Positions 6,904 through 35,868 of a stretch of DNA of 35,868 nucleotides are shown piece after piece. Under the pieces are notes generated by a model. The model made no database searches, was not told the origin of the DNA, and saw only the letters and a program-made list of their open reading frames with translations. The DNA lies in contig LXRJ01000005.1 in the NCBI GenBank assembly GCA_001684025.1, positions 4,262-40,129 on the forward strand, written 5' to 3'. Origin of the DNA: Candidatus Glomeribacter gigasporarum (GTDB lineage: Bacteria; Pseudomonadota; Gammaproteobacteria; Burkholderiales; Burkholderiaceae). The position numbers and the translations under genes were made by a program. The stretch's first letter is position 1; each line of letters opens with the position of its first letter.

Positions 6904-8133
6904 TCAGAGCCTGATTGGATCCGCTGGCGGTTTCCAGTAGAGGCGCGCAATAAAAATAGCGAGCAATTGAATCAAGATGATAAGCGCTACGCAGCCATGC
7001 CAACCAAAACGTTTCCAAATAGGCATAGGCGCAATCGAGCCGACACTTCCGCCAAGATAATAAGAAGTTAAATATAAACCAACCGCGACAACCCTCGCAC
7101 GCTTGACAGTGTGAGCCACAAACGAATTCGCGGCGGTCTGTGCGACGAACGTGCCGGATGCACTCAAAGCCAAGCCCAGCAAGATTTCAGGCAGCGTTGG
7201 TCGAAGCGTCAACAGTGAGCCGATCATGCCGAGCGCCATAGCGGCCAAAAGCAAATCCGAATGCGGCCGCCGCTTGGAAAGCCGGCCCGCCATTGGCGTG
7301 ACGATCATGGCAAGCAGGAACACCGCATAGATTGAGCCGATCGCCGCGGCGTTCAGGCAAAAAGGCGGCTGACTCAGATAGAGACTGATATAGGTAAAGG
7401 TCGTGACTTGTGCGAAGAGAATGCACGCGCCAACGAAAAATGCGGCCTGTATCGCCGGGCTTTTTAGCTCTTGCTTAAGTCCAGCTTGACTGAGTTTGCG
7501 TTGTGATCGCTCGGGAGACTGGACTGTGGCTGTCGTTGACCCAGGAAACAGTGTGTAGATACCTATTCCCAAAATCAGAGCGATGCCGCCAAGGGCGGCA
7601 AAACCGTGGCGCCATGTGCTCATCGCCGCCATCATGTTCGCAACGAAGCGTCCTGCGAAGCCGCCAAGCGTTGTGCCGGCAACGTAGAAGCTCGTCATTT
7701 CTATCACATTCCACCGTTCTTTTTGTTCTCCGATAAAGGCAATCGTCACCGTAAACAATATCGGTATCACAAGCCCTTGGATAAACCGAGACAAAAGAAA
7801 CGCAATAAAAGTCCCGCTTCCCCCAGCGAAGAGGGCCGGCGCCGCCGACAAAATGGCGGCAAATGAAATGACTGCACGCTTCTCAAAGCGCCCTATGAAG
7901 ATATTTACAAAAGGCGCGGTCACCGCGACCGCAAACGTTGTGGCCGTGATGCTCAAACTGGCGCGCGCCACACTGATGTGAAACGCCAATGCGATCTCGC
8001 GCAAAATTCCCTGCGGTGAATATAAATTCAAGAAAGCCGCGCACCCGCAGAGAAAAACGGCGAATGAGGCTGACAAATGTTTAACTGAATTCACCGTTTT
8101 GGCCTGCACGTTTATTGACTTGAGTGGCTCCAT
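6904..8133 (-). CDS. Major facilitator superfamily transporter (YnfM-like)
   Basis: This 409-residue integral inner-membrane protein has about 12 hydrophobic segments and a roughly 25-residue cytosolic N-terminus. The opening FLNLYSPQGILREIALAFHI followed by SLSITATTFAVAVTAPFVN resembles the YnfM/arabinose-efflux group of MFS exporters. A central charged loop (PERSQRKLSQAGLKQELKSP) joins the two six-helix halves. A Gly-rich motif (YLGGSVGSIAPMPIWKRFGWHG) lies in the C-terminal half. The substrate cannot be told from sequence. It is the promoter-proximal member of a two-gene unit with the uncharacterised 273-residue protein, and its start lies 52 nt from the divergent tRNA-Ser gene, a typical place for acquired DNA. 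No strong ribosome binding site precedes the ATG. Confidence 0.9.
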   Translation of the reverse strand: MEPLKSINVQAKTVNSVKHLSASFAVFLCGCAAFLNLYSPQGILREIALAFHISVARASLSITATTFAVAVTAPFVNIFIGRFEKRAVISFAAILSAAPALFAGGSGTFIAFLLSRFIQGLVIPILFTVTIAFIGEQKERWNVIEMTSFYVAGTTLGGFAGRFVANMMAAMSTWRHGFAALGGIALILGIGIYTLFPGSTTATVQSPERSQRKLSQAGLKQELKSPAIQAAFFVGACILFAQVTTFTYISLYLSQPPFCLNAAAIGSIYAVFLLAMIVTPMAGRLSKRRPHSDLLLAAMALGMIGSLLTLRPTLPEILLGLALSASGTFVAQTAANSFVAHTVKRARVVAVGLYLTSYYLGGSVGSIAPMPIWKRFGWHGCVALIILIQLLAIFIARLYWKPPADPIRL

Positions 8134-8185
8134 GGAACTGGGTCATTTAAACGGTTCGCCTGCGCTACAATATCAACGCTTTTTT

Positions 8186-8272
8186 GGAGGTGTGGCCGAG
8201 CGGTTTAAGGCACTGGTCTTGAAAACCAGCGAAGGGGAAGCCCTTCCGTGAGTTCGAATCTCACCGCCTCCG
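8186..8272 (+). tRNA. tRNA-Ser(UGA)
   Basis: An 87-nt class II tRNA. The acceptor stem GGAGGTG pairs with CGCCTCC. The anticodon stem CTGGT/ACCAG encloses the loop CTTGAAA with anticodon TGA. It has a long variable arm (CGAAGGGGAAGCCCTTCCG) and the T arm GTGAG-TTCGAAT-CTCAC. The discriminator is G73. The next bases are CCC, so the 3' CCA end is not encoded and must be added by tRNA nucleotidyltransferase. Confidence 0.97.
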
Positions 8273-8303
8273 CCCGCCCGCAGTAATAAATCTCCTAGCC
8301 CGC

Positions 8304-9782
8304 CTAGACCATTTTCCGCCGCGCTTCGCCTATCCCGAACGGCCGCGTCTTCGCATTGAATTCCCTTGTTTTAATGGCTTGAGCGGCTCTGGCCTCCCAT
8401 ACATCCGCTGCAAGTTTGCTGGCCAATGCTGGCGGCAAAATAGTCCGATTAAAAACAGGTTCACGGATGCCTGCGCGGCGTTGCGCCTTGTAGTCTTGCC
8501 ACGCAATGAGCGCATATTTACCAAGACATGCAATCGCGGCCAGATTAATGAGCGCCATGACCGCCATGCTGATATCAGCCATCTGCCAGACTTGTGTTGA
8601 ACGGCTTAGACTACCGACGACAATAAAGCCAAGCACCGCCAAGCGAAATAGTACGAGCACGATTTTCTTACGGCACAAAAACGAAATATTGCCTTCGGCA
8701 TAGGCATAGTTGCCGATCAGGGTTGTCCAAGCAAAAAAGAAAATCGACCAGGTCATAAATAATCCGCCCCAATCGCCCACCGCGCTCGCCAGCGCGCGCT
8801 GCGTGAGCGCAGCGCCTTCCATCGGTGCGCCTGCCACGTATTGGCCTGAAACCAAAATCATAAAGGCCGTTGCACTGCATATCACAAGGGTATCAATGCC
8901 TGCTGCGAGCATTTGGAGCAGGCCTTGGGAGACCGGATGGCGGACCGTTGCAGTCGCCGCTGCATTTGGCGCGCTCCCCATACCAGCCTCATTTGAAAAC
9001 AATCCGCGCCGAACGCCTGTCATCACCGCCTGAGCAAAGGCATAGCCGGCCAGCCCGCCCGCAGCCTGCTGCACGCCGAACGCGCTTTTAAAGATCAAAC
9101 CAACCATCTCAGGCAATACGGATAAATGCTGCCAGACAGCGTATGCACACAGCATTAGATATCCGAATGCCATCGCGGGTACAACCACGCTCGTGACATA
9201 GCCTACGCGGCGCACACCGCCGAACAAAATGGGCGCGCTCAGCAATGCCAACGCGACGCCCGTTAAGCCGCGTTCCCAACCAAATGCCTGATGAAATGCA
9301 TCGGCGATGGAATTGGTCTGAACGGCATTAAATGTGAAGCCGTAAGCAAAAATGAGCGCCAGCGCAAACAATGTGCTCCACAGGCGCGAATTCAAACCCA
9401 TTCGGATGTAATAGGCAGGGCCGCCGCGAAAGGTTTGATTTTTATGCGGCACTTTGAAAATCTGCGCCAACGTAGATTCGACAAAGGCGGTCGACATGCC
9501 CAGCAAAGCCGTCAACCACATCCAGAAAATGGCGCCTGGCCCGCCGACTGTAAGCGCCACCGCAATGCCAACGATATTGCCCGTTCCAACCCGGCTTGCT
9601 AAACCAATGGTGAGCGCCTGAAAGGGTGTAATACCTTCTTTACCCGCCCTTTTCCAAAGCATTGCCACGCTATGCGGCAATGCGCGCGCCTGTACGCCTG
9701 CGAAGCGCAGCGTAAAATATCCGCCTGCGCCGAGCAGACACGCGATCAGAGCGGAAAACAACCATTCAGTGATGAGGTCCAT
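8304..9782 (-). CDS. Alanine/glycine:cation symporter (AGCS family)
   Basis: This sodium- or proton-coupled uptake carrier for alanine/glycine belongs to the AGCS family. It is an inner-membrane protein of 492 residues with about ten or eleven hydrophobic segments. Family signatures are visible: GLASRVGTGNIVGIAVAL near residue 60, FRGGPAYYIRMGL near 118, and the NEAGMGSAPNAAATA motif near 265. The start has a clean AGGAG ribosome binding site 7 nt upstream. It is a single gene between tRNA-Ser and tolQ, transcribed away from tolQ; the 162-nt spacer to tolQ must hold promoters for both. In a host-associated bacterium it would support amino-acid scavenging, which is an inference. Confidence 0.95.
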   Translation of the reverse strand: MDLITEWLFSALIACLLGAGGYFTLRFAGVQARALPHSVAMLWKRAGKEGITPFQALTIGLASRVGTGNIVGIAVALTVGGPGAIFWMWLTALLGMSTAFVESTLAQIFKVPHKNQTFRGGPAYYIRMGLNSRLWSTLFALALIFAYGFTFNAVQTNSIADAFHQAFGWERGLTGVALALLSAPILFGGVRRVGYVTSVVVPAMAFGYLMLCAYAVWQHLSVLPEMVGLIFKSAFGVQQAAGGLAGYAFAQAVMTGVRRGLFSNEAGMGSAPNAAATATVRHPVSQGLLQMLAAGIDTLVICSATAFMILVSGQYVAGAPMEGAALTQRALASAVGDWGGLFMTWSIFFFAWTTLIGNYAYAEGNISFLCRKKIVLVLFRLAVLGFIVVGSLSRSTQVWQMADISMAVMALINLAAIACLGKYALIAWQDYKAQRRAGIREPVFNRTILPPALASKLAADVWEARAAQAIKTREFNAKTRPFGIGEARRKMV

Positions 9783-26483: not shown

Positions 26484-26785
26484 AATGGCGATCAGCAATC
26501 TAGTTGATCCTAAATTCGATTTTTCTTTTGCCTTGCTTTCGTCGGCTTCGGCTTGCTTCACAAATCCAATGATTTAGTCTTCTGTAAATCGATTTCCTTT
26601 CATGTCCGTCATCCATTCCATTTCTTATAGTTCGATGGATTTAGCTAACTTCCCCTTGGTGCGGTTTAAGGGGAGCAGGTCATTTAAATATGGAACAGGT
26701 TCGTAAACCCAGCGAGCGCCTTTTTCAGTGAGATGACTACTTTCGCGAGCGCATCGCTGCGCCGCGCAAGCCGCTGAAAAACGCG
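26484..26785. other. Intergenic region between the efflux operon and pth
   Basis: These 302 nt hold no convincing gene. The left 200 nt are relatively AT-rich with only a 30-codon ORF. The right end holds the 60-bp hairpin element described separately, abutting the pth stop codon. Both flanking genes end here (convergent), so no promoter is required. Confidence 0.6.
26721..26780 (+). repeat. 60-bp dispersed hairpin element, copy A
   Basis: It begins TTTTTCAGTGAGAT and ends GCGCAAGCCGCTGAAAA. The ends are inverted (TTTTCAG/CTGAAAA), and the wider arms 26715-26728 and 26774-26787 pair at 13 of 14 positions. A copy of exactly the same length lies in reverse orientation at 32030-32089, with about 42 of 60 positions identical by hand alignment. 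Both copies sit between convergent genes, so a bidirectional terminator or REP-like element is likely. Confidence 0.7.
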
Positions 26786-27376
26786 CTAGCTGACGCAATG
26801 TAATCTGTTCATTGCGTGCGTGGTGTCGCCTGTCACAATATGAGGCAATATGGAAAGTGCGCGGCGGATTGCATCGTTGATAAGCGCCTGCTCTTTAGGA
26901 CGCGGCGGCTTGAGCACAAACCGGGTAACCCCAATTTGGGCCTCTTTTGATGAGGAATCACGCGGATGGCCGATACCGATACGAAGCCGCCAATAATCTG
27001 GCGACGAAAGATGCAGAGTAATGTCTTTTAACCCATTATGTCCGCCGCTTCCGCCGCCTTGCTTGAGTTTGGCCGTGCCAGGCGGAAGATCAAGTTCATC
27101 ATGCACAATCAAAATTTCATCCGGCGAGATGTCGTAAAAGCGCGCGACCGCATGCACGGATCGTCCGGAACGGTTCATAAAAGTCTGAGGTTGCAATAAT
27201 CGCAGACTCAGGCCATGAAACCTGGCATGCGCGACATAGCCGTGAAAACGCGCTTCTGAGCGTAATGCGCCGCCTGCTTCGCTTGCGATTGCATCGATTA
27301 CCCAGAAACCGATGTTATGGCGCGTCGCTGCATATTCCGCGCCTGGATTGCCGAGGCCGGCAATGAGCTTAATCAT
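26786..27376 (-). CDS. pth: Peptidyl-tRNA hydrolase
   Basis: Pth releases peptides from peptidyl-tRNA that has dropped off ribosomes, recycling tRNA. The 196-residue protein starts IKLIAGLGNPGAEYAATRHNIGFWVID, which contains the conserved Asn and catalytic His (H20). Also present are the substrate-binding PQTFMNRSGRSV, the catalytic-Asp region ILIVHDELDLPPGTAKLKQGGGSGGHNGLKDI and RLRIGIGHP. Length is normal. It follows rplY by 55 nt, the same order (rplY-pth) seen in many betaproteobacteria, and is last in the prs-rplY-pth run. Confidence 0.97.
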   Translation of the reverse strand: MIKLIAGLGNPGAEYAATRHNIGFWVIDAIASEAGGALRSEARFHGYVAHARFHGLSLRLLQPQTFMNRSGRSVHAVARFYDISPDEILIVHDELDLPPGTAKLKQGGGSGGHNGLKDITLHLSSPDYWRLRIGIGHPRDSSSKEAQIGVTRFVLKPPRPKEQALINDAIRRALSILPHIVTGDTTHAMNRLHCVS

Positions 27377-29188: not shown

Positions 29189-30073
29189 TCAGGACGTGTT
29201 TGAGAAAGAAAATAAAGGGTGCATCGCCAAGCTTGATGCCACGATGCTGCGCATTCCTTGCGGTAGTCTGGATTGTGCAGCGTACGCCTGCGCTTTATCT
29301 TTAAAGGCCGCGAACACGCTCGACCCCGTTCCCGTCATCCGCGCTGGCGCGATATGCCTAAACCAGGCAAGGAGATGCACGACTTGCACATATTTTTGCG
29401 CGACAAGCGGCTGCATATCATTGCGTCCAAAACCCTCCGGCCAAAGCGGATCGCATTGCCTCTCAGTAAAATCCGCAATTCTGATGATTTTCGTATGACG
29501 TGTCAATTCTGGCGCTGCGAAAATTTCGGCGGTTGTCACCTGCACATCCGGCGTGACGATCAGGAAATAACGGTTTGGAAGATCGATGGCGTGCAAACGT
29601 TCGCCAATGCCTTCGGCAAAGGCATTGCGGCCAAACACGAAAAACGGCACGTCCGCGCCTAGCGATAACGCGAGATGTTGCAATTGCGCGCGTGGCAAAT
29701 TAAGTCTCCAAAGCCGGTTCAGCGCGAGCAGCACACCGGCGGCATCTGAACTGCCGCCGCCTAATCCGGCGCCGATCGGCACACGCTTGTCGATGCCGAT
29801 CTCGACGCCGAGCGGGCAGCGCGTCTGCGCCTGCAGCAAGCGCGCCGCGCGCATGCTCAAGTCATTTTCCTCCGGCACATCCGGAGAAGCGGTTGTGCGC
29901 CGAATCACGGCATCATCGCGTACTCTGAAATGCAGCGTATCGCCATAATCCAGCAATTGGAAGACCGTTTGAATGGTGTGATAACCGTCTGGCCGTCGGC
30001 CTGTAATATGCAGGAACAGGTTCAATTTTGCAGGCGCTAAGCAAGATAGATGCGGTCGGTCGTCACTGAGCAT
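29189..30073 (-). CDS. ispE: 4-diphosphocytidyl-2-C-methyl-D-erythritol kinase
   Basis: IspE phosphorylates CDP-methylerythritol in the MEP route to isoprenoids. The 294-residue GHMP-family kinase has the N-terminal substrate region [35 protein letters not shown]. The ATP-binding loop is [26 protein letters not shown]-terminal GHMP motif appears as [14 protein letters not shown]. Length is as expected. It begins 6 nt after the rpe stop, so the two are probably co-transcribed; tRNA-Gln follows 18 nt downstream. The lipoprotein gene lolB, the usual upstream neighbour in betaproteobacteria, is missing from this position. Confidence 0.96.
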
Positions 30074-30079
30074 AAAGGT

Positions 30080-30805
30080 TCACGATCCAGCCTGAACGCT
30101 CTTAAACGGAGTGGCTGCGGCTGTAAGCGCACAGCGCATGGCTTGAATCGCTGCGCGATAGTCGGGTTGCTTGAAAATCGCTGAACCGGCAACAAAAGTA
30201 TCGGCCCCTGCCATCGCGATGGCGGCGATATTGTCTGCGTTGACGCCGCCATCGACCTCCAGGCGGATTTCCCGCCCGGTGTGTTGGGTATACGCATCGA
30301 TGCGCGCGCGCGCCGCGCGCAGTTTATTCAGCGCCTCTGGAATGAACGCTTGGCCGCCGAAGCCGGGATTGACTGACATCATCAAAATCAAATCAAGCCG
30401 TTCCATCACATGGTTCAGAATGTGGAGCGGAGTCGCCGGATTAAAGGCCAGGCCCGCTTCACATCCGTGCGCGCGGATCAGCGCGAGCGTGCGGTCGATA
30501 TGATCCGAGGCTTCAGGATGAAAACTAATGATATGGGCGCCTGCTTTGGCGAATTCAATCGCGATTTGATCCACTGGACGCACCATTAAATGGATATCGA
30601 GCGGTATATCTAAATGTTCACGCTCTAAATGTTGACGCAGCGCAGCGCACACTATCGGGCCGACGGTTAGATTCGGCACATAGTGATTATCCATCACGTC
30701 AAAATGGATCCAGTCCGCGCCCGCGTCTGCGACTTGACACACTTCTTCGCCCAAGCGGGCAAAATCAGCAGACAAAATACTCGCGGCGATGCGGTAGCGC
30801 GTCAT
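30080..30805 (-). CDS. rpe: Ribulose-phosphate 3-epimerase
   Basis: Rpe interconverts ribulose-5-phosphate and xylulose-5-phosphate in the pentose phosphate pathway, feeding the transketolase coded earlier in this window. The 241-residue TIM-barrel protein starts [18 protein letters not shown]. It carries [19 protein letters not shown] (metal ligands), IDIHLMV-type [30 protein letters not shown] and [11 protein letters not shown]. The C-terminal end (residues about 226-241) is a little longer than usual. It is divergent from bamC, 67 nt from the bamC start, and sits directly before ispE instead of its common gph/trpE neighbours. Confidence 0.96.
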
Positions 30806-30872
30806 AATACAATCTTGTCATTTCTCTACGATGGTCAATCAGCCGTCTCTCGTTTGTTATCAAAGAAAGCTT

Positions 30873-32006
30873 ATGAAAATCCGTCTTCGTCGCACTTCAT
30901 TTCATATTGCAGTGCTCTCAACTATAACCATGATAAGCCTTGCTGTTTCAGGGTGCAGTCTGCCCAATACAAAGCAGATTGACTACAAAAGCACAGAAAA
31001 ATCGAACGTATCCGCGCTGGAAATACCGCCTGATATTGTATCCGTGCCGGAAAATCCGGTTGAAGTCTCTGATCGTGTGCTGGCGCCTGTTCCTGGCATG
31101 CGTATCGAGCGTGCGGATGATGCACCTTGGCTGGTGGTAGATCATAAAACGCTTGAGCAACTTTGGCCTCAAGTGCGCGAATTCTGGCAGGCGCAGGGCT
31201 TTAAGCTGCCGGTGGATAATCTCGCGCGCGGTGTTCTTGAAACGGACTGGAAGATATCTCGTGCCCATCTTAACCAAGGCGCGATCCGCAATGCATTGTC
31301 GAAAGTAGAGCGGCTTGGCAACGCCTATGTGGCCTCTGAAAAGAATAAATACCGCACCCGGCTTCTTGCCAAGCCGGATGGCCGGACTTGGATATCGATT
31401 CATCATCAGAGCCAGCATGAGATGCTCACAGGAATCACAAAAGAGACGACACAATGGCAGCCCGCACCCAATAATCCGAGTCTGGAAGCGGAATATTTGC
31501 AGCGTTTGATGTATGCGTTAGCAGGCGAGAATATGCCCAAAACGTTGGCAGATGAAAGCACACTCAAAGAAAAATCGCAGCCTAGGGAGCGCCAGGCAAC
31601 GGTGCCTTCCGCACCGGCTTTAGAGTCTATACGCCAAAGTCCAGAAATGCCGGAGAATGCCCCTGCACAACTTAAATTGAATGCTTCATTTGATCAAGTC
31701 TGGATGCAAACGGGCTTAGCGTTAGAGCGCGCAAACTTAACTATCGCTGAGCGCGACCGTATGCAAGGCATTTATATTCTGCGTTATTATGTAGCGCCTT
31801 CTAAGGCTCGGCAGGCTAAGCGAACCAGCGTGTGGCGCCGGATGTTCCCAAAAAAAGAAGACAAACAGGCGCAGCGGTATAGGCTGAAAGTCCAAGCGTT
31901 AGATTCCGGCACCACGCAGATTTTTGTCGCGCATGAACCGGGAAACGCAGATACGTCAGTGCCTGCGCGGCATATTTTGCAACTGCTGGCGCAGCAATTG
32001 CGTTAG
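30873..32006 (+). CDS. bamC: Outer-membrane assembly lipoprotein BamC
   Basis: BamC is an accessory lipoprotein of the BAM complex that inserts beta-barrels such as TolC-type channels and autotransporters into the outer membrane. The ATG at 30873 (MKIRLRRTSFHIAVLS) was chosen because it gives a normal signal peptide; the frame extends 14 codons upstream. The 377-residue protein has lipobox AVSGC and then an unstructured segment (IDYKSTEKSNVSALEIPPDIVS) typical of the BamD-binding lasso. Two helix-grip domains follow: one around LWPQVREFWQAQGFKLPVDN...GVLETDW and one around FDQVWMQTGLALERANLTIAERDRMQGIYILRYY. A linker of about 50 polar residues separates them. The usual upstream dapA is not here. 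Confidence 0.92.
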   Translation: MKIRLRRTSFHIAVLSTITMISLAVSGCSLPNTKQIDYKSTEKSNVSALEIPPDIVSVPENPVEVSDRVLAPVPGMRIERADDAPWLVVDHKTLEQLWPQVREFWQAQGFKLPVDNLARGVLETDWKISRAHLNQGAIRNALSKVERLGNAYVASEKNKYRTRLLAKPDGRTWISIHHQSQHEMLTGITKETTQWQPAPNNPSLEAEYLQRLMYALAGENMPKTLADESTLKEKSQPRERQATVPSAPALESIRQSPEMPENAPAQLKLNASFDQVWMQTGLALERANLTIAERDRMQGIYILRYYVAPSKARQAKRTSVWRRMFPKKEDKQAQRYRLKVQALDSGTTQIFVAHEPGNADTSVPARHILQLLAQQLR

Positions 32007-32029
32007 CGCATTTTTATCGAAACCTTCGA

Positions 32030-32089
32030 TTTTCAGCGGCTTGCGCTAAGCCGCTTCGCACTCGCTCCTTATGCAATCTCGCTGAAAAA
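32030..32089 (-). repeat. 60-bp dispersed hairpin element, copy B
   Basis: On the minus strand it begins TTTTTTCAGCGAGAT-like and ends GCGCAAGCCGCTGAAAA, with the same length and end sequences as copy A at 26721-26780. It contains an additional perfect 8-bp hairpin AGCGGCTT/AAGCCGCT (32035-32055). It fills most of the 87-nt gap between the convergent bamC and hsp20 genes and probably terminates one or both. Confidence 0.7.
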
Positions 32090-32093
32090 AGCG

Positions 32094-32597
32094 TTAAGCG
32101 GGTGCATGCGCTACCGCGATTTCCCGATAACGCTCCGAACCGCCTGCTTTTTTGGGGATTTCAATCCAAAGCATGCCTTTTTTAAAAGTGGCGTTCACCT
32201 TTTCAGTATCGGCCGATTCCGGTAGCGGTATATTGCGCTGATAGGAACCATAGGCGATCTCACGCATCGCGTAGTTTTGGCCTTTATCTTTCTGGGAAAC
32301 CGTTTTTTCGCCTTTGATCGTGAGCACGTGGTCGCTGATTGAAATTTTCAAGTCTTCAGGGCCCATACCTGGCACTTCCGCTTCTACTTTGAGCATATCT
32401 TGAGTATCAATGATATCCACGCAGGGATGAATCATCAGATTTTCCCAATCTCCAAAAGAAGCGGAAGAACGTTCAAAATCGCGATAGAAGTCTTCCATCA
32501 TCCGTTCAAAGGCCGTGTCAAACGGCGAAAATAAATTTCGGCGGACCTGAACGGGAAGGGGCAGTGACCGTCCCCAATGCGTCAAAGGATTTTTCAT
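32094..32597 (-). CDS. Small heat-shock protein, Hsp20/alpha-crystallin family
   Basis: This ATP-independent holdase chaperone prevents aggregation of unfolded proteins in the cytosol. The 167-residue protein has an N-terminal segment with SPFDTAFERMMEDFYRDFE. The alpha-crystallin domain runs from about residue 55 (PCVDIIDTQDMLKVEAEVPGMGPEDLKISISDHVLTIKGEK) through YGSYQRNIPLPESADTEKVNATFKKGMLWIEIPKK. GGAGAT lies 9 nt before the ATG. A perfect FNR box is 86 nt upstream. It would sit at -41.5 if transcription starts near 32648, where a TATTCT -10-like hexamer is suitably placed. It is thus likely induced by oxygen limitation as in Burkholderia low-oxygen loci; the link is inferred. Confidence 0.95.
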   Translation of the reverse strand: MKNPLTHWGRSLPLPVQVRRNLFSPFDTAFERMMEDFYRDFERSSASFGDWENLMIHPCVDIIDTQDMLKVEAEVPGMGPEDLKISISDHVLTIKGEKTVSQKDKGQNYAMREIAYGSYQRNIPLPESADTEKVNATFKKGMLWIEIPKKAGGSERYREIAVAHAPA

Positions 32598-32682
32598 GAT
32601 GAATATCTCCGGAAAGTGATGCGCATAAATCTCAAATCAGTCGTAATAATTTATAGAATATTCCAATCTGATATTCAACACA

Positions 32683-32696
32683 TTGATATAGATCAA
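32683..32696. promoter_or_regulatory. FNR/ANR box between hsp20 and fnr
   Basis: Perfect consensus TTGAT-ATAG-ATCAA. It is in the 236-nt divergent spacer, 86 nt from the hsp20 ATG and 137 nt from the fnr ATG. The spacing to a TATTCT hexamer (32655-32660, minus strand) fits a class II activated promoter for hsp20; autoregulation of fnr from the same site is also possible. Confidence 0.85.
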
Positions 32697-32833
32697 AGTG
32701 AATTGGATCTATCTAAATATTAGAAAATTAAACGGGTTGTTGATTAAAATTTAGAGTGCGCATGAACAATGTAATGTAGCGCAGACAGTTTATTAAGTTT
32801 AATCATCATCCGGAATTTGCGAGGCTGATATTC

Positions 32834-33544
32834 ATGCTCGGGAAACCCAAGGCCGCGGTCAGAAAACATGTTTCATGCAGCGATTGTGCAGTCAATCGCA
32901 TTTGCATGTTCAAAGGCGGTGCGAGGCCGGAGGCTAGAGTCCTCGATCTGATTATTGAAGAAGAGTTGTTCCTGGAAAAAGGCTGTGTGGTCTGCGATTC
33001 GAGCGGGCCTGCGCGTAATTTATATGCTGTACGCGCCGGCACACTGAAGGAATGCACGGTTGATCGAGCCGGCAAGGAAAGAGTGATTGATTTCTATTTT
33101 CCAGGCGAGATCGTCGGTCTGGATGCGCTGAGCCAGCGTATTTATCACTATGCCACGATCTCAATTGAGAAAAGCACCGTGTGCCGAATACCGTTCGACA
33201 GTCTGCTTGAGCGGATCAAACACATTCCAGGGCTGCCCCAGCAGCTTCTCAATCTGATGAGCAGACAATTGTTCAATCGCACTTTGCTGAATCATTTTCA
33301 ATCCGCGGAGCAGCAATTGGCGGCTTTTCTAGTCGCGTTATCGCAACGTTTCGCGCAACCTGGACGATTGGGCGCTTCTTACCGGCTCAGTATGTCCCGC
33401 CACGATATTGCCGGTTATCTGCAACTCACGACAGAAACTGTCAGCCGTGTTTTTACCCGTTTTAGACGGCAGGGGCTGATTACAGTCAATAAAAAATACA
33501 TTGTGATTAATAAACCCGCAGAATTGGCAGAGCTGGCCGCTTGA
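32834..33544 (+). CDS. fnr: FNR/ANR-type oxygen-sensing transcription regulator
   Basis: This Crp/Fnr-family regulator senses oxygen through a 4Fe-4S cluster. The 236-residue protein has three N-terminal cysteines in CSDCAVNRIC (C15, C18, C24) spaced as in E. coli FNR (C-x2-C-x5-C). The fourth, internal cysteine is in STVCRIPF. The cyclic-nucleotide-binding-like barrel and dimer helix (QQLLNLMSRQLFNRTLLNHFQSAEQQLAAFLVALSQRF) are intact. The C-terminal helix-turn-helix YLQLTTETVSRVFTRF keeps E, S and R, the residues that read TTGAT half-sites. GAGG lies 9 nt before the ATG. Two matching boxes flank the gene, so it probably controls its neighbours: hsp20 and the BON-CBS-reductase genes. Confidence 0.95.
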   Translation: MLGKPKAAVRKHVSCSDCAVNRICMFKGGARPEARVLDLIIEEELFLEKGCVVCDSSGPARNLYAVRAGTLKECTVDRAGKERVIDFYFPGEIVGLDALSQRIYHYATISIEKSTVCRIPFDSLLERIKHIPGLPQQLLNLMSRQLFNRTLLNHFQSAEQQLAAFLVALSQRFAQPGRLGASYRLSMSRHDIAGYLQLTTETVSRVFTRFRRQGLITVNKKYIVINKPAELAELAA

Positions 33545-33568
33545 GCGCTGGCAGTGAGCCATCATTTC

Positions 33569-33582
33569 TTGATCCAGATCAA
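33569..33582 (+). promoter_or_regulatory. FNR/ANR box upstream of the BON-domain gene
   Basis: Perfect consensus TTGAT-CCAG-ATCAA, 25 nt after the fnr stop and 91 nt before the BON-gene ATG. A start site near 33617 would put it at -41.5 with CATACT (33605-33610) as the -10 element. It is expected to activate the BON-CBS genes under low oxygen. Confidence 0.85.
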
Positions 33583-33626
33583 TGCTTCGCCTGAGGAAGC
33601 ATTCCATACTACCCAAATAAAAATCG

Positions 33627-33647
33627 TTTATGAAATAACTTCTAGAA
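33627..33647. repeat. Dispersed 21-bp motif, second full copy
   Basis: The reverse complement begins TTCTAGAAGTTATTTC and matches the motif at 5946-5966 at 20 of 21 positions. It lies between the predicted transcription start and the ribosome binding site of the BON gene, so it would be part of that mRNA leader. Confidence 0.6.
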
Positions 33648-33673
33648 AAAAAGAATTGAAAAGGAGGATAGGG

Positions 33674-34333
33674 ATGAAAAAGAGCGAGCAACTCTATGCG
33701 GATGTGATGGAAAAACTCGAATTCGAACCCAGCGTCGATGCGTCCGATATCACGATCCGGGTCGATGGTGAGGTCGTCACCTTAGGCGGTGAAGTCGGCA
33801 GTCTATTCGAGAAACATGCGGCCGAGCGGGCGGTGCAAAGTGTCTCCGGCGTGAAAGGCATTGCCAATGAACTCAAAATCAAGCTCACGCCCGAGTGGCA
33901 GCGGTCTGATACAGACATCGCCAACGCCGCGCTGAATGCGCTGAAGTGGAATAGCGCGGTGCCTAGAGACCGGGTTCAAGTCAGTGTTGAAGACGGATAC
34001 GTCACCTTAAGCGGTACGGTGGATTGGTGGTACCAGAGCGAAGCAGCGGCGAAAGCCGTTCAATGGCTCTCCGGCGTCAAAAATATTGTGAATCACATCA
34101 CTTTACAAAGCCATATCTTGCCGCGCGATGTTCAATCCCAGATCCATCGGGAATTTCATCGGCATGCGCAACTAGATGCCGACCGGATTCAAGTGGAAGT
34201 GTCAGGCAGCCATGTCGCGCTCAAAGGCGAGGTGCGTTCCTGGTTTGAGCTGGAAGAAGCCAGCCACAGCGCCTGGTCGGTGCCGGGCGTGACGCAGGTC
34301 GATAATCAGTTGGTGATCCGCTATACCGCTTAA
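33674..34333 (+). CDS. Protein with three BON domains (OsmY-like)
   Basis: BON domains bind membranes or lipids and occur in osmotic/envelope stress proteins such as OsmY. The start at 33674 has a strong AGGAGG site 6 nt upstream; the frame continues 40 codons farther but without support. The 219-residue protein consists of three tandem BON repeats at about residues 5-70, 78-145 and 150-216. Each has the pattern I-x-V-x2-G-x-V-x-L-x-G-x-V followed by A-x2-A-V/W-x2-V-x-G-V (for example ITIRVDGEVVTLGGEV and VQVSVEDGYVTLSGTV). No signal peptide is seen, so it may be cytosolic, unlike OsmY. It has a perfect FNR box upstream and is followed by the CBS gene 61 nt downstream. Confidence 0.94.
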   Translation: MKKSEQLYADVMEKLEFEPSVDASDITIRVDGEVVTLGGEVGSLFEKHAAERAVQSVSGVKGIANELKIKLTPEWQRSDTDIANAALNALKWNSAVPRDRVQVSVEDGYVTLSGTVDWWYQSEAAAKAVQWLSGVKNIVNHITLQSHILPRDVQSQIHREFHRHAQLDADRIQVEVSGSHVALKGEVRSWFELEEASHSAWSVPGVTQVDNQLVIRYTA

Positions 34334-34394
34334 AAACGGTCAAACACGATTTTTATTTAGAACACGTTAAAGGAAGAAATCTAGGGAGAGCCGG

Positions 34395-34868
34395 ATGATG
34401 ATTCATGAAGTGTGCCAAATGATGCTTGACGATATCAGTAAAAAACAGGTCGCAACTCTTTCTGGTGAGGATTCCATTCAAAAGGCAGCGCAGAAAATGC
34501 GTGACAAGAATGTCGGTAGTATTGTGGTCATGGATGCGCAGCAACATCCGGTCGGTATAGTCACAGATCGGGACATTGTGGTTCAGGTGGTGGCGGAAGG
34601 TGTGGGCCCATCGGGCCAGACGGTCGCCGATATTATGAGCCAGAATTTATTGATTCTGCGCACTTCAAACTCATTACAGGAAGCGGTGCGCAGCATGGAT
34701 GAAAAATGCGTGCGGCGCGCGCCGGTGGTGGACGAGCACGGCGCTTTATACGGCCTTGTATCGCTGGATGACCTGCTGATTCTATTGAGTCAATGCTTAA
34801 GTAAATGCGCTGAATTAATCAAAAAACAAACAAAGTGCGAGAGCACGGAAACGGAATGTTGTGCATAA
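34395..34868 (+). CDS. Twin-CBS-domain protein with a cysteine-rich tail
   Basis: CBS pairs (Bateman modules) bind adenine nucleotides and act as energy sensors. The 157-residue protein has CBS1 at about residues 14-68 (TLSGEDSIQKAAQKMRDKNVGSIVVMD...VGIVTDRDI) and CBS2 at about 80-135 (LLILRTSNSLQEAVRSMDEKCVRRAPVVDEHGALYGLVSLDDLL). The last 24 residues hold five cysteines (QCLSKC, TKC and ECC). I do not know this tail from other CBS proteins; metal or redox sensing is a guess. GGGAGAG precedes the ATG. It follows the BON gene by 61 nt with no box of its own, so it is probably in the same FNR-controlled operon. Confidence 0.93.
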   Translation: MMIHEVCQMMLDDISKKQVATLSGEDSIQKAAQKMRDKNVGSIVVMDAQQHPVGIVTDRDIVVQVVAEGVGPSGQTVADIMSQNLLILRTSNSLQEAVRSMDEKCVRRAPVVDEHGALYGLVSLDDLLILLSQCLSKCAELIKKQTKCESTETECCA

Positions 34869-34885
34869 ACGGATGTTGGAGGTTT

Positions 34886-34941
34886 GGGCGGCCAAAGGTA
34901 AAATGATGTAATTTTATTCATTTTACACCTTGGCTCCGCCC
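34886..34941. promoter_or_regulatory. Long imperfect hairpin abutting the fpr start codon
   Basis: The left arm (GGGCGG, CCAA, GGT, AAAATGA) and right arm (TCATTTTAC, ACCTTGG, CCGCCC) pair over about 20 bp with small bulges, around an 11-nt AT-rich loop. It ends directly at the ATG of the reductase gene, where no ribosome binding site is visible. No T-run follows, so a standard terminator is not indicated. It may control translation or be a former repeat. Confidence 0.7.
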
Positions 34942-35715
34942 ATGATGAATCGAATCAACCGGCACACTGTATTAAGCGTCCATCATTGGACGGATACGCT
35001 GTTCAGCTTCACCTGCACCCGTGATCCTTCTTTTCAATTTGAAAATGGACAATTTACGCTGGTCGGGATCGAAGCGGAAGGGAAATTGCTGATGCGCGCC
35101 TATAGTATGGTCAGCGCAAATGATGAAGCAATATTGGAATTCTTTTCAATCAAAGTGCCGGGCGGCCGTCTGACTTCGCATTTACAACATATCCAGCCAG
35201 GCGATTCAGTCTTTGTGGGTAAGAAGCCTGTCGGCACGTTAGTGATTGGTCATCTGTTACCAGGCGAGACGCTCTGGCTGCTTTCGACTGGAACGGGCCT
35301 GGCCCCTTTCCTCAGCATTATCAAGGATATCCGTATTTATCAGCGCTACCAGCGTATTATTCTGACGCATACTTGCCGTCTCGCCGCCGAGCTGGCGTAT
35401 CGAGAATATCTCACACAAACCTTTCCGCGGCATGAACGCCTTGGCCAATGGGTGCGGGAAAAGTTGATTTACTACCCGAGCGTGACACGGGAACCCTTTA
35501 TCCATCAGGGGCGGATTACCGATTTGATCGAAAGCGGCGGGTTATTTAAAGATTTGGAGCGGGCGCCTTTTACGCCTGAGCAGGACCGCCTGATGCTGTG
35601 CGGCAGCCCGCAAATGGTCAAAGATACGCGTGCCCTGCTACAAGCGAGAGGTTTTCAGGAGAGCAGCGCCGCTCAACCAGGGCATTATGTCGTTGAGAAA
35701 GCATTTGTGGATTGA
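34942..35715 (+). CDS. fpr: Ferredoxin/flavodoxin-NADP+ reductase (bacterial Fpr type)
   Basis: This FAD enzyme exchanges electrons between NADPH and ferredoxin or flavodoxin, supporting Fe-S repair and oxidative-stress responses. The start at ATG 34942 gives 257 residues; a TTG four codons upstream and a second ATG right after it are alternatives. The FAD domain carries RAYSM (residues 52-56) and the phosphate-binding PGGRLTSHLQ. The NADP domain carries LLSTGTGLAPFLSIIKD and MLCGSPQMVKDTRALL. The C-terminus GHYVVEKAFVD is the extended tail of the bacterial plant-type subclass. Length matches. It lies 73 nt after the CBS gene behind a long hairpin, so its transcription may be separate from the FNR-controlled pair. 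Confidence 0.95.
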   Translation: MMNRINRHTVLSVHHWTDTLFSFTCTRDPSFQFENGQFTLVGIEAEGKLLMRAYSMVSANDEAILEFFSIKVPGGRLTSHLQHIQPGDSVFVGKKPVGTLVIGHLLPGETLWLLSTGTGLAPFLSIIKDIRIYQRYQRIILTHTCRLAAELAYREYLTQTFPRHERLGQWVREKLIYYPSVTREPFIHQGRITDLIESGGLFKDLERAPFTPEQDRLMLCGSPQMVKDTRALLQARGFQESSAAQPGHYVVEKAFVD

Positions 35716-35868
35716 GAAGCGGAATGCATCAAATAGTTGAAACCAAAAAGTAGGTTCAATGCCTGTTTAATATCAATATCCCGGTTTAATTATGTATTGA
35801 TAGGTAGAAATGTATCATCAAAAATTAAGTTATCTTTAATGGTGAAATCATTTCTATCGACTGGGAGA
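35716..35868. other. AT-rich right-end segment without a gene
   Basis: I see no coding sequence in these 153 nt. An 8-bp inverted repeat (TAGAAATG at 35805-35812, CATTTCTA at 35849-35856) surrounds an AT-rich stretch. It may be a promoter region for a gene outside the window or the 3' flank of fpr. Confidence 0.5.

Follow-up and report, generated by a model that had tools for sequence, protein, structure and literature searches.

The locus raises the question whether an FNR-type regulator and the two boxes on either side of its gene form a self-contained low-oxygen circuit for neighbouring stress genes in Glomeribacter, a relative of Burkholderia that lives in fungi. The window, i.e. the whole stretch of 35,868 bases that was analysed, was compared with the corresponding locus of Candidatus Glomeribacter gigasporarum BEG34 (NZ_CAFB01000047; BEG34 below), the sole other Glomeribacter genome compared. 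From sequence and comparison, a minimal class II FNR circuit serving Hsp20 and BON-CBS appears probable. The genes concerned, with one ribosome-binding site, are the following.

32094..32597, minus strand: hsp20, small heat-shock protein of 167 aa (Pfam HSP20, 3e-23), predicted target of box 1
32834..33544, plus strand: fnr, FNR-type regulator of 236 aa (domain, profile and structure matches)
33660-33667, plus strand: ribosome-binding site of the BON gene, AAAGGAGG
33674..34333, plus strand: triple BON-domain protein of 219 aa (Pfam BON, 4e-48), predicted target of box 2
34395..34868, plus strand: CBS-pair protein of 157 aa (Pfam CBS, 1e-25), in the same order in BEG34
34942..35715, plus strand: ferredoxin/flavodoxin-NADP reductase-like gene (best NCBIfam match PRK10926, under its cut-off)

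In BEG34, the order hsp20 (reversed), fnr, BON, CBS and reductase is that of the window. Hsp20 and the BON protein are each 90% identical in BEG34 and the reductase-like gene 91%, with alaS next to it there. Comparing the window with BEG34, dN/dS is 0.08 for hsp20 and 0.24 for fnr, the latter above the 0.07–0.18 of its neighbours; fnr is constrained and under purifying selection. The CBS gene, 61 bp past BON, is probably on the same transcript as BON, and the reductase-like gene, 73 bp past CBS, is a possible read-through member. A dispersed intergenic repeat with a core near TTTCAGCGGCTTGCGC is present at 32024-32092 and 26711-26788, and copies with 72–92% identity are found in several other stretches of the window genome and in BEG34. 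An Rfam search of 30000-35868 gave no match.

The regulator had been predicted to be an FNR protein with all four cluster cysteines and the E-S-R recognition residues, which is confirmed by alignment, profiles and structure matches. Its Pfam domains HTH_Crp_2 (3e-17) and cNMP_binding (1e-11) place it in the Crp/Fnr fold. It matches the NCBIfam Fnr subfamily at 3e-52 with 177 bits, under the 228-bit cut-off, and FNR sequences of the PDB at 3e-41. The predicted model has a mean pLDDT of 75.8 and is poor at residues 1–37, the site of the first three cysteines; used as a Foldseek query, it retrieved A. fischeri FNR at every rank from 1 to 11. Equivalents of Cys20, Cys23, Cys29 and Cys122 (C-X2-C-X5-C plus one central cysteine) are found in both Glomeribacter species, and a sensor other than FNR was rejected since all four are kept. 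At the recognition positions Glu209, Ser212 and Arg213, the residues are E, S and R in the window and E, C and R in BEG34. Within AR3, the regulator carries Lys at the Asp86 position and Asp at the Thr82 position. As the Asp86 position is Arg in most Burkholderiales homologues (33 of 40), this Lys is weak evidence against the proposed circuit. A search of the window genome with this regulator as query identified no Crp/Fnr match besides fnr itself.

Two boxes of the form TTGAT-N4-ATCAA flank this gene, both located by pattern scan and by alignment with BEG34.

32683-32696: box 1, TTGATATAGATCAA, between hsp20 and fnr
33569-33582: box 2, TTGATCCAGATCAA, between fnr and the BON gene

The original prediction stated that this box occurs twice in the window, both times around fnr. 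The exact pattern count agrees, with precisely two perfect copies of TTGATNNNNATCAA in the 35,868 bases, both in the intergenic flanks of fnr. The genome-wide scan that had been proposed as a check gives 5 perfect copies in the 2.34-Mb genome (832 contigs) versus 4.4 expected when the window is modelled as a first-order Markov chain, and the remaining three all lie within ORFs. The genome total is thus not above chance, and the signal is placement: for the approximately 365 bp of fnr flanks, the model predicts about 0.0007 perfect boxes, versus 2 observed. In BEG34, the counterpart of box 1 is perfect (TTGATATGGATCAA) and that of box 2 has one mismatch (CTGATCCAGATCAA), each box being identical to its aligned counterpart at 13 of 14 bases. 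The silent-site divergence of the five genes (dS 0.5–0.8) means that unconstrained sequence would be expected to differ clearly between the two species, although part of the box conservation is shared ancestry, the two species being close. The ordinary genome total would suit a reading in which boxes and hexamers are functionless chance matches. Given the expectation in the fnr flanks and the positions and spacing kept in BEG34, that reading is hardly credible. Immediately 3' of box 2, at 33583-33601, the window also holds a hairpin, TGCUUCGCCUGAGGAAGCA (-7.4 kcal/mol, z -2.0), whose stem is not conserved in BEG34.

Next to each box, a -10-like hexamer is found at the same distance.

32655-32660, minus strand: TATTCT, -10-like hexamer of hsp20, 23 nt from the edge of box 1; in BEG34, TATACT likewise at 23 nt
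33605-33610, plus strand: CATACT, -10-like hexamer of the BON gene, 23 nt from the edge of box 2; in BEG34, TACACT likewise at 23 nt

A hexamer beginning 23 nt past the box edge corresponds to a box centred at -41.5, as in a class II promoter. Both hexamers had been proposed at this offset; they are indeed there, and the offset is also kept in BEG34. The predicted sites at all four promoters (hsp20 and BON, window and BEG34) would accordingly have the box at -41.5 with the -10 in register, and the predicted transcription starts lie near 32648 for hsp20 and near 33617 for the BON gene. Among 60 offsets, offset 23 gives the best summed match to TATAAT across the four promoters (17 of 24, the next best being 14). 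The chance of this score is about 0.0002 if the promoters were sampled independently, a figure that overstates their independence, as they form two orthologous pairs. If only the window promoters are taken, both match TATAAT at 4 or more of 6 positions at none of the 60 offsets except 23, and for any one fixed offset the chance of this is about 0.011. The hexamers themselves match TATAAT at only 4–5 of 6 positions, and the yield of a generic promoter scan was not above that of shuffled sequences. Between window and BEG34, the box-to-hexamer spacers show zero indels and, by eye, 14 of 22 identical bases for hsp20 as well as for BON.

Because box 1 lies between the divergent hsp20 and fnr genes, it could serve either of them. 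Autoregulation is common among FNR proteins, and box 1 might mainly be an operator for fnr autorepression, with hsp20 affected incidentally. Such an operator would have to accommodate distances from box 1 to the fnr start that differ between the window (145 bp) and BEG34 (about 46 bp). Toward hsp20, the spacing from box 1 to the hexamer is identical in both. On the fnr side of the box, the window reads ATTAGA at the class II offset, with only 2 of 6 matches to TATAAT. Identical spacing on the hsp20 side, together with a differing distance and hexamer on the fnr side, ties box 1 by position to hsp20 and not to fnr, and we regard the mainly autoregulatory role as very unlikely. A class II promoter for fnr from box 1 was rejected in view of the wrong hexamer in the window and a leader of about 5 nt in BEG34. 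Repression of fnr may still occur in addition to activation of hsp20 at box 1.

In the proposed circuit, the product of 32834-33544 would act as an FNR-type [4Fe-4S] oxygen sensor. At low oxygen, the cluster-loaded dimer would bind box 1 and box 2 and recruit RNA polymerase from -41.5, in class II fashion, activating hsp20 leftward and BON-CBS rightward, perhaps with the reductase gene. The result would be a local circuit for protein and cell-envelope protection and not a global respiratory switch; the endobacterium in which it would operate shows a single oxidase, of the aa3 type. Protein family, boxes, conservation, promoter spacing and gene order are the parts that come from sequence and comparison, and it is from these that we infer cluster binding, oxygen response, activation, operon extent and physiological role. 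The central claim of the original prediction, an FNR regulator flanked by two class II boxes toward hsp20 and BON, is supported at this level and strengthened by the conservation in BEG34. Since both sites and their promoter spacing recur in BEG34, the locus seems to be a genuine miniature low-oxygen circuit, though not a very unusual one.

The circuit had also been described as a compact regulon. Both Glomeribacter genomes were scanned for perfect boxes and for boxes altered at T1 or T5, with nearly all sites taken in and C91:138640 left out. At that stringency, no intergenic box is common to both genomes apart from the two that flank fnr, with the reservation that the ORF filter hid some sites, including 2 of the 4 fnr-flanking boxes (recovered by alignment), and possibly others too. 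The few intergenic T1/T5 variants are scattered. Compactness therefore holds for perfect and T1/T5-variant boxes alone; a scan allowing one mismatch returns at least 170 places and carries little information.

Each Glomeribacter genome shows one heme-copper oxidase subunit I (CtaD-like, L273 and L274), whose length and HPEVY motif, judged by eye, point to the aa3 type, and in neither genome was a cytochrome bd subunit I found. With one aa3 oxidase and no cytochrome bd, the usual terminal-oxidase targets of FNR are missing, which would fit a stress-protein role for this regulator. If so, a bacterium that lives obligately inside a fungus and has one aa3 oxidase would retain its single FNR for protein and envelope protection and not for respiration, suggesting that oxygen tension in the fungus varies enough to merit sensing.

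The most interesting feature of the Glomeribacter FNR is its unusual dimer helix. In both Glomeribacter proteins, the stretch between LMS and AE counts 14 residues versus the usual 17 and contains no acidic residue (segment RQLFNRTLLNHFQS). Position 154 is Asp or Glu in 38 of 40 Burkholderiales homologues, and two homologues have Ser or Asn there. An acidic 154 in a full-length dimer helix is typical of FNR and not strictly defining. In E. coli, Asp154 holds cluster-free FNR monomeric, and the D154A variant is dimeric in air with raised aerobic activity (PMC4214427). With no Asp154 and a helix shortened by three residues, oxygen-controlled dimerisation may differ in Glomeribacter, and its gating may be weaker than that of a standard FNR.

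Taken further, the regulator could derive from an FNR but be largely without oxygen gating, staying dimeric without Asp154 and driving hsp20 and BON-CBS largely constitutively, or following iron-sulfur supply or nitric oxide instead. The absence of an acidic residue where nearly all homologues have one and the behaviour of E. coli D154A point in this direction, as does a structure of an apo-D154A dimer on record (9qlt), and a stable intracellular habitat might relax gating. On the other hand, neither species has lost any of the four cluster cysteines, E. coli D154A retains a 3.6-fold response to oxygen removal (PMC4214427), and the shortened helix may dimerise through other contacts. A largely ungated regulator is consequently considered unlikely, and an oxygen-responsive FNR, albeit one whose gating is possibly weakened, is the preferred reading.

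Next, the origin of the regulator was considered. The aligned homologues from the family and order are 31–40% identical to it, and outside the genus the top score goes to an FNR from a gammaproteobacterium (G523, locus L275 9007-9657) with 40% identity. A search of a plasmid collection gave no closer FNR, the best being 37%. In a tree of 41 sequences, the Glomeribacter regulator and the G523 FNR group together with a support of 95/93, on a long Glomeribacter branch (1.83). In the G523 FNR, the dimer helix is likewise three residues shorter than usual and Asp154 is absent, and the two are possibly a distinct short-helix FNR lineage. Unlike Glomeribacter fnr, the G523 gene adjoins a hemN-type ORF (by eye), and the approximately 10 kb around it contain no hsp20, BON or CBS match. 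With a branch of this length, these data no more than suggest a transfer of fnr from outside the Burkholderiaceae. A short helix without Asp154, found also in one other FNR, offers a clear test of how important the monomer-dimer switch is to FNR function.

A likeness to the low-oxygen-activated loci of Burkholderia had also been proposed, and the cassette might be a reduced lxa locus from a free-living Burkholderia ancestor, a question of origin that leaves the proposed mechanism untouched. A heat-shock protein and a BON protein are among the products of the B. cenocepacia lxa locus, which has about 50 genes (PMC6127331). In four large-genome relatives (G003, G011, G017 and G024), Fnr-type and BON genes, often accompanied by CBS or Hsp20 genes, lie within about 10–50 kb. 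In G024, one fnr homologue next to two BON genes (C2:1193964-1194641; L239, approximately 7968-8636) is reported with one in-frame TGA. In the trees, the Glomeribacter regulator lies with the gammaproteobacterial FNR and outside the clade of those Fnr proteins whose genes neighbour BON genes in the large-genome Burkholderiaceae, a placement that is not final given the long branch; because of it, lxa descent is unsupported. Against such descent are also the position of the locus, between bamC-like and reductase-alaS genes and not in an lxa island, and the upstream regions of the relatives' BON, CBS and Hsp20 genes. With start positions approximate, 5 of these 11 regions have no box within two mismatches, and none of the 11 carries, at the class II offset, a hexamer matching at 4 or more of 6 positions. 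What stands of the proposed likeness is thus the sharing of gene types, while descent from lxa, with which regulator clade, boxes and hexamers disagree, is distinctly unlikely.

Combining origin and helix, one may speculate that an FNR from outside the Burkholderiaceae, with a short helix and without Asp154, began as a respiratory switch and became, in an endosymbiont of fungi, an activator dedicated to a single chaperone and stress cassette and partly independent of oxygen, its regulon being only its two neighbouring transcripts. We consider this broader scenario doubtful.

Compared with known systems, the cassette resembles lxa and similar Burkholderiaceae clusters in its Hsp20- and BON-type proteins, the only types it shares with the lxa gene content; in the relatives, too, an Fnr-type gene is clustered with BON and CBS. 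It differs in having five genes, none of them a universal stress protein by Pfam, versus about 50 that include several universal stress proteins, and in another FNR clade and another genomic place. In the lxa-like clusters of the relatives, strong boxes are rare and without a class II hexamer, unlike in the cassette. The BEG34 locus is alike in genes, order, boxes and spacing, and differs in the one mismatch of box 2, the closer fnr start and the Cys at Ser212. The regulator shares 37–38% identity with E. coli and Aliivibrio fischeri FNR, and differs from both in a dimer helix that is three residues short, the loss of Asp154 and the Lys in place of Asp86; in the window genome, no cytochrome bd or second heme-copper oxidase was found for it to regulate. 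It is like them in fold, in the four cluster cysteines and in the E-S-R helix, and the circuit is like theirs in the TTGAT-N4-ATCAA box and the class II spacing.
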